This document shows, in pieces, positions 3,914 to 6,884 of a stretch of DNA of 64,000 nt. Position numbers and translations under genes: made by a program. The stretch lies in NCBI RefSeq assembly GCF_003546865.1, contig NZ_CP023434.1:1240001-1304000 (forward strand), written 5' to 3'. Each line of letters begins with the position of its first letter. Positions within the stretch are counted from its first letter, which is position 1. The stretch is from Suicoccus acidiformans (GTDB lineage: Bacteria > Bacillota > Bacilli > Lactobacillales > Aerococcaceae). The notes under the pieces are model-generated. The model saw only the letters and a program-made list of their open reading frames with translations, made no database searches and was not told where the DNA came from.

Positions 3914-4705
3914 TTATAAAATAGCTTCTTCTGCTAAGACAAGATCTTCCAAGCGGGCATATAAATCAGCTGTCGTGAGTGATTTTATTGCTTGGCTGTC
4001 GTAATGGTCGACAATTTGCCCATGATGCATCACAATAATGCGATCGCTGAAGTTAAGGGCGTCTTGATGATGGTGGGTGATCATGAGTGTGGTTAAATCT
4101 TGCTCTTTAATCATAGTATGAGTCATTTCCATCACTTGGCGGGCAATCCGAGGGTCTAAAGCTGCTGTATGCTCGTCGAGCAGTAATAGTTTCGGTTGCT
4201 TAATGGTTGCCATAATGAGGGAAATAATTTGGCGTTGACCACCGGATAAGCTCCCGATGGGAACATCCATCCGATGCTCTAAATCCAAGCGGAAACTTGC
4301 GAGATACTCGCGAATATTATGATAGCGTTCCTGAGTTAGGGAAATGCCTAAACCACGACTTGCGCCCCGCTTTTGGGCAAGGGTTAAATTCTCAAAGACA
4401 GTCATCCGCGGAGCGGTTCCCATTGTAGGGTCTTGAAAGACGCGCCCAATATGCGCTGCTCGTTCAACTTGTGATAAGCCGTCCACTTGCTTGCCGTCTA
4501 AATAAATCGCACCAGAATCAATCGGATACTGTCCCGTGAGGCAATTGAATAAAGTTGATTTTCCTGCCCCATTGGTTCCTATAACCGCGATTACTTCTCC
4601 GGCTTGGATATCTAAACTCAGATTCTTCAAGCCGTGAATGGGGTCGCCGCTTCGACTCGGGAATTGTTTGTTAATCTGTTGAATGCTGACTTGTGTTTGT
4701 GGCAT
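3914..4705 (-). CDS. ABC transporter ATPase, TrpXYZ type
   Basis: 263-aa nucleotide-binding subunit that powers import by the adjoining permease and binding protein. Walker A GTNGAGKST near residue 43, ABC signature LSGGQRQI near 153, Walker B LLLLDEHTAALDP near 173, and the H-loop ITHHH near 210. The DEHTAALDP form is typical of the COG1101 group found with TrpX-type binding proteins. It is the last gene of a three-gene operon, starting one base after the permease stop. A Trp-codon leader peptide upstream of the operon supports tryptophan (or a related compound) as the substrate. Confidence 0.88.
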   Translation of the reverse strand: MPQTQVSIQQINKQFPSRSGDPIHGLKNLSLDIQAGEVIAVIGTNGAGKSTLFNCLTGQYPIDSGAIYLDGKQVDGLSQVERAAHIGRVFQDPTMGTAPRMTVFENLTLAQKRGASRGLGISLTQERYHNIREYLASFRLDLEHRMDVPIGSLSGGQRQIISLIMATIKQPKLLLLDEHTAALDPRIARQVMEMTHTMIKEQDLTTLMITHHHQDALNFSDRIIVMHHGQIVDHYDSQAIKSLTTADLYARLEDLVLAEEAIL

Positions 4706-4706
4706 C

Positions 4707-5585
4707 TTAAATCCCCTTTCTCTGACGTAAGCGACGTTGAATGGAAGGCACGGCTAAGAAGATTGCGAGCACGGTTGCGGAAATAAGACGGAAGTCATTT
4801 GGATTAAAGCCGAGTCTTAGGACAAAGACCAGGATTAAGCGGTAAATAATCGCCCCAACAATTACCGTGCCTAAACGTTGGGATAGGCGCAATTCTCTAC
4901 GGAACAACACTTCCCCAATGACAATCGCACTCATGGCAATTACTACGGTTCCAGAACCCATGGAAATATCTGAGAAGCCATTGGATTGAGCCACTAAAGC
5001 CCCACTGAGTGCAATAAGTCCATTGGCTAACATCAGGGCAAGTCTTTTGGTTTGATTGACTTTAATGCCTAAGGAAAGCGCCATTATTTCATTATCTCCG
5101 GTAGCAATTAAGGCTTGGCCTAAGTCCGTTCGGAAGAAATAGCCTAGTAAAGCAACCAGAATCACAACAAAGACCAAACCCAGCACTAATTTTTGCGTTG
5201 TCCCATTAGCAATCCATTGACTAATCGTATCATAAATCGTTTCAAAACCCCGCAAGCTTAAATTAGGCTTCTCCATAATGCGCAAATTAATCGAGTACAT
5301 ACCCGTTAAGGTGATAATACTACTTAATAAGCCTGGAATTTCAAAAAAGGTCGTCAACGCTCCGGTAATCCACCCAGCAAAGATTCCGGCCAAAATCGCC
5401 AGCAAGGTGGCTAAGACGGGATGCAAGCCCTGGGTGATCAAAAAGACTCCCAAAGCTGCCCCTGCCGTGAAGGAAGCTTCACTCGTCAAATCAGCGAAAT
5501 TTAAGATACGAAAACTAATATAAAGGCCTAGCCCCATGATGCCCCATAAGACACCTTCTGCTACTGCGCTGTAATATACTTCCAT
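4707..5585 (-). CDS. ABC transporter permease, TrpXYZ type
   Basis: 292-aa integral membrane permease with about eight to nine hydrophobic segments, of the branched-chain-type permease superfamily (COG4120). Recognisable features are YYSAVAEGVLWGIMGLGLYIS at the start and the EASFTAGAALG and TDLGQALIATGDN segments usual for this group. It lies between the binding protein (29-bp gap) and the ATPase (1-bp gap), which indicates one transcript. The C-terminus is basic (QRRLRQRKG), consistent with a cytoplasmic end. Expression is probably set by the attenuator upstream of the first gene. Confidence 0.88.
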   Translation of the reverse strand: MEVYYSAVAEGVLWGIMGLGLYISFRILNFADLTSEASFTAGAALGVFLITQGLHPVLATLLAILAGIFAGWITGALTTFFEIPGLLSSIITLTGMYSINLRIMEKPNLSLRGFETIYDTISQWIANGTTQKLVLGLVFVVILVALLGYFFRTDLGQALIATGDNEIMALSLGIKVNQTKRLALMLANGLIALSGALVAQSNGFSDISMGSGTVVIAMSAIVIGEVLFRRELRLSQRLGTVIVGAIIYRLILVFVLRLGFNPNDFRLISATVLAIFLAVPSIQRRLRQRKGI

Positions 5586-5614: not shown

Positions 5615-6592
5615 TTATTTCGCCAAATCAGTCGCTTCCCCTAATACATCTTCTGGAAGCGTCAAACCTAAACGTTCTGCTGTTTCAGAGTTGACGACAG
5701 TCGTTAAATCGGATACATATTCCACAGCTGTCTCGCTAATATTAGCGCCGTCGAGTAATTTTTGTAAGAAATCAGCTGCTTGTATGCCGATTTGCTTCTG
5801 ACTCATGGCAACACCTGCTAAAGCGCCTTGTTCCACCATCACTTCAACACCCGTGTATACTGGTATACCTGCTGCATCACTAACATCTACTAAGGTTTCA
5901 AAGGCACTAGCAATCGTGTTATCAGATCCAACGTAGATAGCATCAACTTCATTAACTAAGCTTTGTGCAACCATTTGCATGTCCATGGCCGAGTCAATTC
6001 CTTCTAGGACGGTCTCAAAGCCAAGTGCTTCAGCAGCCGCTGCTGCATCTTCCATTTCTGTCAACGAGTTATCTTCACTCGTTGTATATAGTAAGCCAAT
6101 TTTCTTCACATCAGGGGTAATGGCTTGAACGAGTTCGAATTGTACATCGAGTGGCACATAGTCGCTGATACCTGAGATATTTCCACCGGGTTGATCGAGG
6201 GAATCCACTAAATTAACTGAAAGCGGATCGGTTACACCAGTTAGAATAATTGGAATATCGCTCGTTTCATTCTGCACGGCTTGGGCTACCGGTGTGGTAA
6301 TAGCAAAGATGTAATCAGGATTATTGGAGACAACTTGCTGGGAAATCGTGCTTAAAAGATTCATATCCCCTTCAGCATTCTGGTAGTCAAGGGTCATGTT
6401 CTCCCCTTCGATATAGCCATTCGCCTCAAGCCCTTCGATCACACCTTCGCGGATTAAATCTAGGGACGGGTGTGATACCAGCTGGATAATGGCTACGTTT
6501 AAATCTGTTTCTTCACTGGCATTGGCAACCGGAGCAGCGAAACTTGTGAAGGCTAAAACTAAGGCGAGTACGTATTGGATAATTTTCTTCAT
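5615..6592 (-). CDS. trpX: ABC transporter substrate-binding protein, TrpX type
   Basis: 325-aa extracellular binding protein of the ABC_sub_bind family (COG2984), with typical segments VAIIQLVSHPSLDLIREG, IILTGVTDPLSVNLV and AIYVGSDNTIASAFE. I start at ATG 6592 (MKKIIQYVLAL), which has AGAGGA upstream; earlier in-frame codons lie in the attenuator. The N-terminus is a signal peptide, but its cleavage region (FAAPVANA|SE) has no lipobox cysteine. That is unusual for a Gram-positive binding protein, which normally needs a lipid anchor. It is the first gene of the operon. The symbol rests on family and on the Trp leader. Confidence 0.85.
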   Translation of the reverse strand: MKKIIQYVLALVLAFTSFAAPVANASEETDLNVAIIQLVSHPSLDLIREGVIEGLEANGYIEGENMTLDYQNAEGDMNLLSTISQQVVSNNPDYIFAITTPVAQAVQNETSDIPIILTGVTDPLSVNLVDSLDQPGGNISGISDYVPLDVQFELVQAITPDVKKIGLLYTTSEDNSLTEMEDAAAAAEALGFETVLEGIDSAMDMQMVAQSLVNEVDAIYVGSDNTIASAFETLVDVSDAAGIPVYTGVEVMVEQGALAGVAMSQKQIGIQAADFLQKLLDGANISETAVEYVSDLTTVVNSETAERLGLTLPEDVLGEATDLAK

Positions 6593-6614: not shown

Positions 6615-6645
6615 TCAAAAAAACTAGCACACACTATGTGCTAGT
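6615..6645 (-). terminator. Attenuator terminator before trpX
   Basis: On the minus strand ACTAGCACA (6637-6645) pairs perfectly with TGTGCTAGT (6623-6631) across a 5-nt loop, followed by a run of seven T. It ends about 25 bp before the trpX start, so it must be bypassed for transporter expression. Confidence 0.92.
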
Positions 6646-6769
6646 TTTCCATAATACCACATAGTATGTTCTTAGACATCTACGTGGTAAACAATGTGCT
6701 GGCCACATAGATACAATCCCAGTGTACACTGAATTGGTTGTATCCATGGACATGCGCCAAGTTTACAAC
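6646..6769 (-). promoter_or_regulatory. Chain of alternative hairpins in the trp-transporter leader
   Basis: Minus-strand segments pair in mutually exclusive ways. Seg 1 GGTTGTA (6770-6764) pairs with seg 2 TACAACC (6742-6736). Seg 2 CATGGATACAA (6748-6738) pairs with seg 3 TTGTATCTATG (6716-6706). Seg 3 CTATGTGG (6710-6703) pairs with seg 4 CCACGTAG (6687-6680). Seg 4 TACCACGTAG (6689-6680) pairs with seg 5 CTATGTGGTA (6664-6655). Seg 5 ACTATGTG (6665-6658) pairs with CACATAGT (6640-6633), which is part of the terminator. Pairings 1-2, 3-4 and 5-terminator give antitermination; 2-3 and 4-5 allow the terminator. No T-box motif is present. Confidence 0.75.
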
Positions 6770-6823
6770 CTATCTATGCCAGTTTTGCCAGCGATATTCA
6801 ATTGCAAAAACTTGTTTATGCAT
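6770..6823 (-). CDS. Tryptophan-rich leader peptide (17 aa)
   Basis: A short ORF encodes MHKQVFAIEYRWQNWHR, with Trp codons at positions 12 and 15. It has a strong RBS (AGAGAGGAG) eight bases before its ATG and starts about 25 nt after the predicted transcription start. Its stop codon overlaps segment 1 of the downstream hairpin chain. This is the layout of a classical ribosome-stalling attenuator. A ribosome stalled at the first Trp codon would leave segment 1 free, while one reaching the stop would cover it. The peptide itself probably has no other role. Confidence 0.82.
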   Translation of the reverse strand: MHKQVFAIEYRWQNWHR

Positions 6824-6855
6824 GTCAGTGGCTCCTCTCTCTTTTTGATATATTT

Positions 6856-6884
6856 ATCTTATGGGATTGTTGTTACTTTGTCAA
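6856..6884 (-). promoter_or_regulatory. Sigma-A promoter of the trp-transporter operon
   Basis: TTGACA (6879-6884), a 17-base spacer and TAAGAT (6856-6861) on the minus strand; a near-consensus promoter placed about 30 bp before the leader peptide ATG. Confidence 0.85.

Follow-up and report, generated by a model that had tools for sequence, protein, structure and literature searches.

The window (the whole 64-kb stretch of DNA that was analysed) carries on its minus strand a leader that lies between a divergently transcribed rqcH/efbA-like gene and an operon for a TrpX-type transporter. The parts of the leader and the genes of the operon are given below in the order in which they would be transcribed, with the basis of each assignment in brackets.

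6856..6884, minus strand: predicted promoter, -35 TTGACA, 17-nt spacer, -10 TAAGAT (consensus scan 10/12 and direct reading; no experiment)
6832..6838, minus strand: Shine-Dalgarno sequence AGAGGAG of the leader ORF, 8 nt upstream of its ATG (sequence)
6770..6823, minus strand: leader ORF of 17 codons, MHKQVFAIEYRWQNWHR, with Trp codons 12 and 15 (direct reading; WQxW[HR]R end kept in relatives)
6770..6781, minus strand: segment a, from the last Trp codon through the stop codon, UGGCAUAGAUAG, partner segment c (shuffles, permutations, covariation with codon swaps)
6757..6770, minus strand: segment 1 (a'), GGUUGUAAACUUGG, directly 3' of the stop codon, partner segment 2 (pairing in relatives, permutations)
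6736..6749, minus strand: segment 2 (b), CCAUGGAUACAACC, partner segment 1 or 3, corresponding to the P1 left arm of the Rfam family RF04312 (alignment to RF04312, covariation, permutations)
6700..6718, minus strand: segment 3 (c), GAUUGUAUCUAUGUGGCCA, antiterminator strand, partners a, segment 2 or segment 4 (covariation, permutations, shuffles)
6676..6690, minus strand: segment 4 (d), left arm of the ancestral terminator T1 (pairing and double changes in relatives)
6655..6669, minus strand: segment 5 (e), right arm of T1, without a U-run, also pairing with the left arm of T2 (shuffle z and partner swaps)
6617..6648, minus strand: terminator T2, CUAGCACA, hairpin 6648-6620 followed by U7 (T-run 6623-6617) (sequence and fold)
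5615..6592, minus strand: trpX-like ABC transporter substrate-binding protein, 325 aa (PF04392, E 2.9e-83; NF041285 TrpX, E 1.8e-100)
4707..5585, minus strand: ABC permease of the operon, TrpY-like (PF02653, E 1.2e-21)
3914..4705, minus strand: ABC ATPase of the operon, TrpZ-like (PF00005, E 7.2e-33)

The near-consensus promoter, the strong ribosome binding site and the 17-aa leader with Trp at positions 12 and 15 had been pointed out in an initial annotation made from the sequence alone, and all of them can be read directly. The terminator that it placed just upstream of trpX was flagged by no hit of a simple terminator scan of the window leader (0 terminators); the hairpin and T-run are nevertheless plain in sequence and fold, the T-run ending 24 nt upstream of the trpX ATG (6592). 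Since segment 5 is not followed by a U-run, T1 of the window appears from its sequence to be a relay hairpin only. A plasmid collection searched with the leader region gave no match. Near the start of the window, positions 109-1601 hold an IS3-type transposase-like gene pair, an HTH protein and an integrase-like ORF, recognized by reading the translations.

The match of the substrate-binding protein to the NF041285 TrpX model reached 336 bits, which is under the curated cut-off of 390. The genome of the window has one leader of the WQxWHR type and no trpB over the cut-off, the latter being consistent with a dependence on Trp uptake. T-boxes (RF00230) were matched 29 times in this genome, all outside the window, and the Rfam scan found none within the 64 kb of the window itself. 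Given the single leader, the absence of trpB above the cut-off and the 29 T-boxes elsewhere, it makes physiological sense for a Trp-uptake operon to be controlled through tRNA-Trp. The same genome carries, outside the window (G000:C1:2487402-2491663, L002-L005), four clustered genes for TrpX-like substrate-binding proteins, 31-38% identical to the TrpX of the window; the WQxWHR pattern is absent upstream of these four.

Segments 1 to 5 had been described as each complementary to the next, and the energies bear this out. Duplexes between neighbouring segments of the window leader amount to -12.6 to -17.4 kcal/mol, against at most -6.2 for non-neighbours, and the summed energy of the chain is -87.9 compared with -26.4 +/- 5.2 in segment-wise shuffles, with 0 of 2000 shuffles as low. 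The leader as a whole folds 5.5 standard deviations below its dinucleotide shuffles.

Of 76 Aerococcaceae genomes, 52 contain a TrpX homologue; named relatives are Hutsoniella sourekii (65% identity) and Aerococcaceae bacterium DSM 111020 (58%). The leader architecture is common to 26 trpX upstream regions of this family. Loss of the Trp codons in relatives had been named beforehand as a possible refutation, and the codons turned out to be conserved: nearly all of the 26 leaders end in WQxW[HR]R*, the departures being WQSLLR* (L023), WDWHHF* (L030), WQGWHS* (L061) and WQSWHG* (L062), while the N-terminal half of the peptide varies freely. Three genomes (G024, G025 and G048) have second TrpX genes (L061-L063), each preceded by a separate Trp leader of this kind; the element thus duplicates along with the operon. 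The covarying pairs expected upstream of trpX were present for both states. Over 22 aligned sequences, 91% of cells were paired for the terminator state (2-3, 4-5), with 11 pairs changed on both sides, and 94% for the antiterminator state (1-2, 3-4), with four double-change cells; slid controls on the same alignment gave 21-54%. By helix, pairing was kept in 97% of cells for 1-2, 90% for 3-4 and 87% for 4-5, and 9 of the 13 pairs of helix 4-5 showed double changes. Covariation has low power at segments 1-2 and a among these close relatives because the segments are near-invariant there. At L030, the most divergent locus, the letters differ but the pairings persist.

Some of the relatives have a U-run after hairpin 4-5, which makes this hairpin a terminator in its own right (T1). 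The window and some relatives have no U-run after 4-5, which leaves the distal T2 as the sole remaining terminator. The complementarity of segment 5 to the terminator, also noted from the single sequence, held up: segment 5 against the left arm or loop of T2 gave a mean shuffle z of -2.64, and the native combination beat swapped partners in 16 of 19 relatives. The series of T1 only, T1 with T2, and T1 without its U-run with T2 explains what had been perceived as a six-segment relay.

At the gathering threshold, Rfam gave no match in the window leader. A permissive scan aligned the leader end to end with RF04312, known as the 'trpB motif', at 29.8 bits. As the gathering threshold of that family is 59, the window leader is a divergent relative of RF04312 and not a member by Rfam's rule. 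The layout of the family is found at the window, with the P1 hairpin (2-3), the antiterminator in its shoulder and then the terminator, before a TrpX-type transporter. A match to rli40 was rejected, as it covers little outside the terminator region. RF04312 was published in 2024 by Narunsky et al. as the 'strong riboswitch candidate' SRC-39-1, a 107-nt motif with more than 900 representatives, mostly upstream of an uncharacterised ABC transporter (PMC11109978). Among Lactobacillales genomes, 237 of 395 had a match to it; a class sample and a phylum sample gave 14 of 300 and 4 of 398 genomes with matches.

The interpretation on which the family was published is that the RNA is a metabolite riboswitch which binds tryptophan or a related ligand directly; an upstream ORF would then be incidental. 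Structured RNA upstream of amino-acid transport genes is in keeping with this, although the discoverers themselves left a classic attenuator open (PMC11109978). What speaks against a riboswitch is, to begin with, the leader peptide. We fetched 121 RF04312 loci blind to any upstream leader and, for each, considered the ORF with the highest score among those that end close to P1. At 115 of the 121 this was an in-frame leader, with a start codon, that has Trp among its ten C-terminal residues, against 7% in shuffled controls and 12% at displaced positions; an SD-like sequence stood upstream of 118 of 120 leaders. Of the six loci missing a Trp leader, two look like wrong-frame picks (L143, L188), one is a probable false match (L058) and three have other codons. 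Three matches, L058 (G482), L197 and L198, have no leader and were classed as probably false. The downstream gene was TrpX at 108 of 120 loci and trpB-like at five more, the assignment being made by N-terminal sequence, with an HMM test for one. The published 107-nt motif ends upstream of a second terminator, which we found at 86 of 120 loci with a left arm complementary to the right arm of T1 (mean z -2.07). The loci are related and not independent, and they were de-duplicated by leader-peptide similarity to 68, without a tree. In this set, comparison of native with permuted partners gave 0/300 for each of 1-2, 2-3 and 3-4.

The WQxW[HR]R* end is strongly conserved, Gln and the last Arg among its residues, which raises the alternative of a TnaC-like arrest peptide. 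In such a peptide the WQxWHR* end would sense free tryptophan and, at high Trp, halt the ribosome on the stop codon; such a stall would mask segment 1 and lead to termination. However, the first Trp is separated from the stop by anything from 3 to 11 codons, so the fixed spacing that would serve as a criterion for arrest is not met. Some leaders have a single Trp codon, and the second Trp, the His/Arg and the final Arg are missing from many leaders. Codon usage was also peculiar at this end: the Gln after the first Trp is CAA in 98 of 98 leaders, the final Arg is always AGA/AGG and a preceding Arg always CGN (for example in the window, 6790-6770). The choice of Arg codons is partly explained by a pairing of the leader end with segment c, which accounts, as a constraint on the RNA, for much of the conservation of the end; the preference for CAA remains unexplained. 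Versions of the leader with His, Tyr/Phe or Phe codons exist as well, and free-tryptophan arrest is in our judgement quite unlikely.

The pairing in question joins the end of the leader ORF, segment a, to the antiterminator strand, segment 3 or c, over about 11-13 bp. The mean shuffle z of a with c was -2.84 in Aerococcaceae, and for the 68 de-duplicated RF04312 loci z was -2.4 with 0/500 permutations. In the latter set no pairing of a with the left arm of P1 or the left arm of T1 was seen; a signal of a with the right arm of T1 is expected because c and that arm resemble each other. Single loci are not conclusive for this pairing, since the native partner is equalled or surpassed by some swapped ones at L057, L053 and the window; the permutation test is conclusive. 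A protector hairpin formed by the early part of the leader ORF with segment 1 had modest support in RF04312 loci, with z of -0.55 to -0.71 and 0/300 permutations; in Aerococcaceae z was 0.01 when segment 1 was taken short and -1.08 when it was taken longer. This hairpin stays a possibility, secondary to the a-c pairing. A pairing of the conserved UGGC with the tRNA acceptor was dropped, as the Tyr/Phe and His leaders have no matching sequence.

Leaders with other codons lie in front of other genes. One (L053/L066 in G427, C19:14519-14626) has HHHH upstream of hisZ-hisG-hisD, with hisG above its curated cut-off (TIGR00070) and hisZ below it (TIGR00443, E 1.3e-64). Two leaders, YYFSYFR* and YFSYFR* (L055/L067 in G407 and L057/L068 in G019), stand upstream of ABC transporter operons, and a locus from the phylum-level search (L196 in G1016) has a Phe-rich leader, IFFNNHFR*, upstream of a sodium-dependent transporter. 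Strand c changes along with the codons in Tyr/Phe (L055), His (L053) and Phe (L196) leaders and in the divergent Trp leader L030; at L055 the a-c pairing extends over 13 bp with no mismatch. As judged from its predicted pairings and genes, the His locus is a natural specificity switch within the same RNA architecture, and the Tyr/Phe and Phe leaders apparently predict the specificity of their transporters. The three RF04312 loci with His or Tyr/Phe codons weigh as decisive, so far as sequence can decide, for the leader-peptide reading.

Because Trp leaders occur at 115 of 121 loci and the exceptions carry His or Tyr/Phe codons, we read RF04312 as a putative family of ribosome-dependent leader-peptide attenuators and not as a metabolite riboswitch. 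That the leader codons follow the regulated pathway and the strand with which they pair, and that the stop codon lies at footprint distance from segment 1, also counts against direct ligand binding, which we regard as very unlikely. A further possibility is a TRAP-like RNA-binding protein, or constitutive tandem terminators for which the ORF merely sets basal read-through. Sequence by itself cannot rule out a protein regulator, and tandem terminators are common at RF04312 loci; yet either proposal gives no reason why Trp codons should be conserved, and swapped with the pathway, or why the alternative pairings of both states covary, and both seem to us barely tenable.

The attenuator reading depends on where a ribosome would stand, and this was assessed with textbook values, the 3' edge being set 12 nt past the first base of the A-site codon. 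When the first Trp codon occupies the A site, segment 1 would be exposed to a mean of 92-96% over the 116 RF04312 and 26 Aerococcaceae loci (96% in RF04312, n=116). With the stop codon in the A site, the exposure would fall to a mean of 13% in RF04312 (n=116) and 0% in Aerococcaceae. The parity proposed for segment 1 in the initial annotation, free for a ribosome at the first Trp codon and covered at the stop, thus agrees with the geometry. With the last Trp codon of WxR* leaders in the A site, the edge falls at the end of the stop codon, so that a is covered and 1 is free.

Partition functions for RF04312 transcripts ending at segment 4 gave 8.1-8.6 expected 3-4 pairs for a ribosome stalled at Trp, 3.3 for one at the stop and 5.5 without a ribosome; the Trp stall favoured 3-4 over the stop position in 83 loci and the reverse was found in 4. 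For the window, folding had been suggested as a check, and it does not discriminate: the equilibrium folds do not show the switch between ribosome positions, the 3-4 pairs in transcripts ending at segment 4 being 10.0 without a ribosome, 8.1 at the first Trp, 10.0 at the last Trp and 9.5 at the stop. Transcripts to segment 4 of the Aerococcaceae set separated the ribosome states weakly or not at all in equilibrium folding, and full-length minimum-energy folds favoured the terminator in most cases and were uninformative as a switch test. Since equilibrium folding fails to separate the states of the window, we infer that, should the proposed switch operate there and in the Aerococcaceae members, the choice between states would have to be a kinetic one.

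In the mechanism we propose, the elements follow one another in the RNA as a, 1, 2, 3, 4, 5 and T2, and the a-3 pairing encloses 1-2 and is compatible with it. When Trp is short, a ribosome stalled at the Trp codons would cover a and leave 1 free, whereupon 1-2 forms; the free segment 3 would take 4, the released segment 5 would invade T2, and transcription would reach trpX. When Trp is plentiful, a ribosome at the stop would cover both a and 1, giving 2-3, 4-5 and T2, and transcription would end. Without translation, a-3 would pair with 1-2 nested inside it, 3 would be locked, and transcription would again end. The inserted lock (1, 2) would allow the ribosome at the stop to act on a strand that is out of its reach. 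Stalling on uncharged tRNA, the kinetic choice between the states and termination itself are inferred in this scheme. The pairing of the Trp-codon segment with the antiterminator strand predicts termination in a leader that is not translated, and brings the logic closer to that of E. coli trpL than was first proposed. The earlier proposal of trpL-style logic with relay steps is supported, but it had missed the a-3 pairing.

With no expression data at hand, we consider it highly probable that the leader of the window is a ribosome-mediated transcription attenuator which senses tRNA-Trp charging and controls a Trp-uptake operon, and that it goes with the RF04312 family as a divergent relative. 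This rests on sequence comparison, namely on the conservation of the leader and its Trp codons, covariation, footprint geometry and codon swaps matched to the genes. The wider proposal is likely too, if somewhat less firm: RF04312 would consist of leader-peptide attenuators (for Trp and, by codon swap, Tyr/Phe, His and Phe) with a two-lock logic, one antiterminator strand being controlled by the regulatory codons together with a segment beyond the stop codon, and with a relay-coupled second terminator; the window would be an evolutionary end stage in which T1 is now purely a relay hairpin.

If this is true, one strong orphan riboswitch candidate with more than 900 representatives leaves the search for ligands and is replaced by a ribosome-read sensor of tRNA charging, and a widespread leader-peptide attenuator is added to the Lactobacillales, where T-boxes were thought responsible. 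It may also answer how trpX operons without a T-box are controlled. Since codons and paired strand change together, the sequence could tell which amino acid is sensed and so help to annotate transporters. The coupled tandem terminator offers a relay design that can be put to the test, and living species preserve its intermediates.

Whether the leader class had been described was left unsure by the initial annotation. The leader is a divergent relative of a catalogued family. In open-access papers, without supplements, we found no account of a Lactobacillales class of Trp leaders and none that connects RF04312 with a leader peptide; an account in a subscription journal is possible. The main text of the RF04312 publication does not report the leader ORF, which lies just upstream of the model (PMC11109978). 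RF04312 and the window are alike in that 2-3 corresponds to P1, with the antiterminator in its right shoulder and then the terminator, and in that the genes are TrpX-type transporters and trpB; unlike the published motif, the window scores below the gathering threshold, has lost the U-run of T1 and has a coupled T2 after it.

The attenuation principle is already known in Bacillota, and the importance of the present analysis is mainly the reinterpretation of a catalogued riboswitch candidate. Leader-peptide attenuators described there include his leaders (PMC2965389, PMC9413887), the antibiotic-linked bmrB (PMC4191407) and a reported Leu-rich leader attenuator of the BCAA operon of S. aureus (PMC5794164). 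They resemble the device proposed for the window in that a ribosome stalled on a short ORF picks antiterminator or terminator, and differ from it in the signals sensed and in RNA architecture. The orthologous transporter trpXYZ of S. suis is under a Trp T-box, an element not found in S. pyogenes (PMC9382623); tRNA-Trp charging controls the S. suis transporter as proposed here, but the tRNA is bound directly by the RNA, without a ribosome. The Rfam Trp_leader model had no match in the window at the gathering threshold and none among the permissive matches in the leader region, so no sequence relation to it was detected. In its proposed logic the window shares with E. coli trpL the Trp codons in the leader peptide and the competition of a, c, d and e as trpL 1-2-3-4. 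It differs from trpL in that an extra pair (1, 2) is inserted, that a ribosome at the stop codon would act at a distance and not by covering the antiterminator strand, and that the terminators are tandem and coupled.
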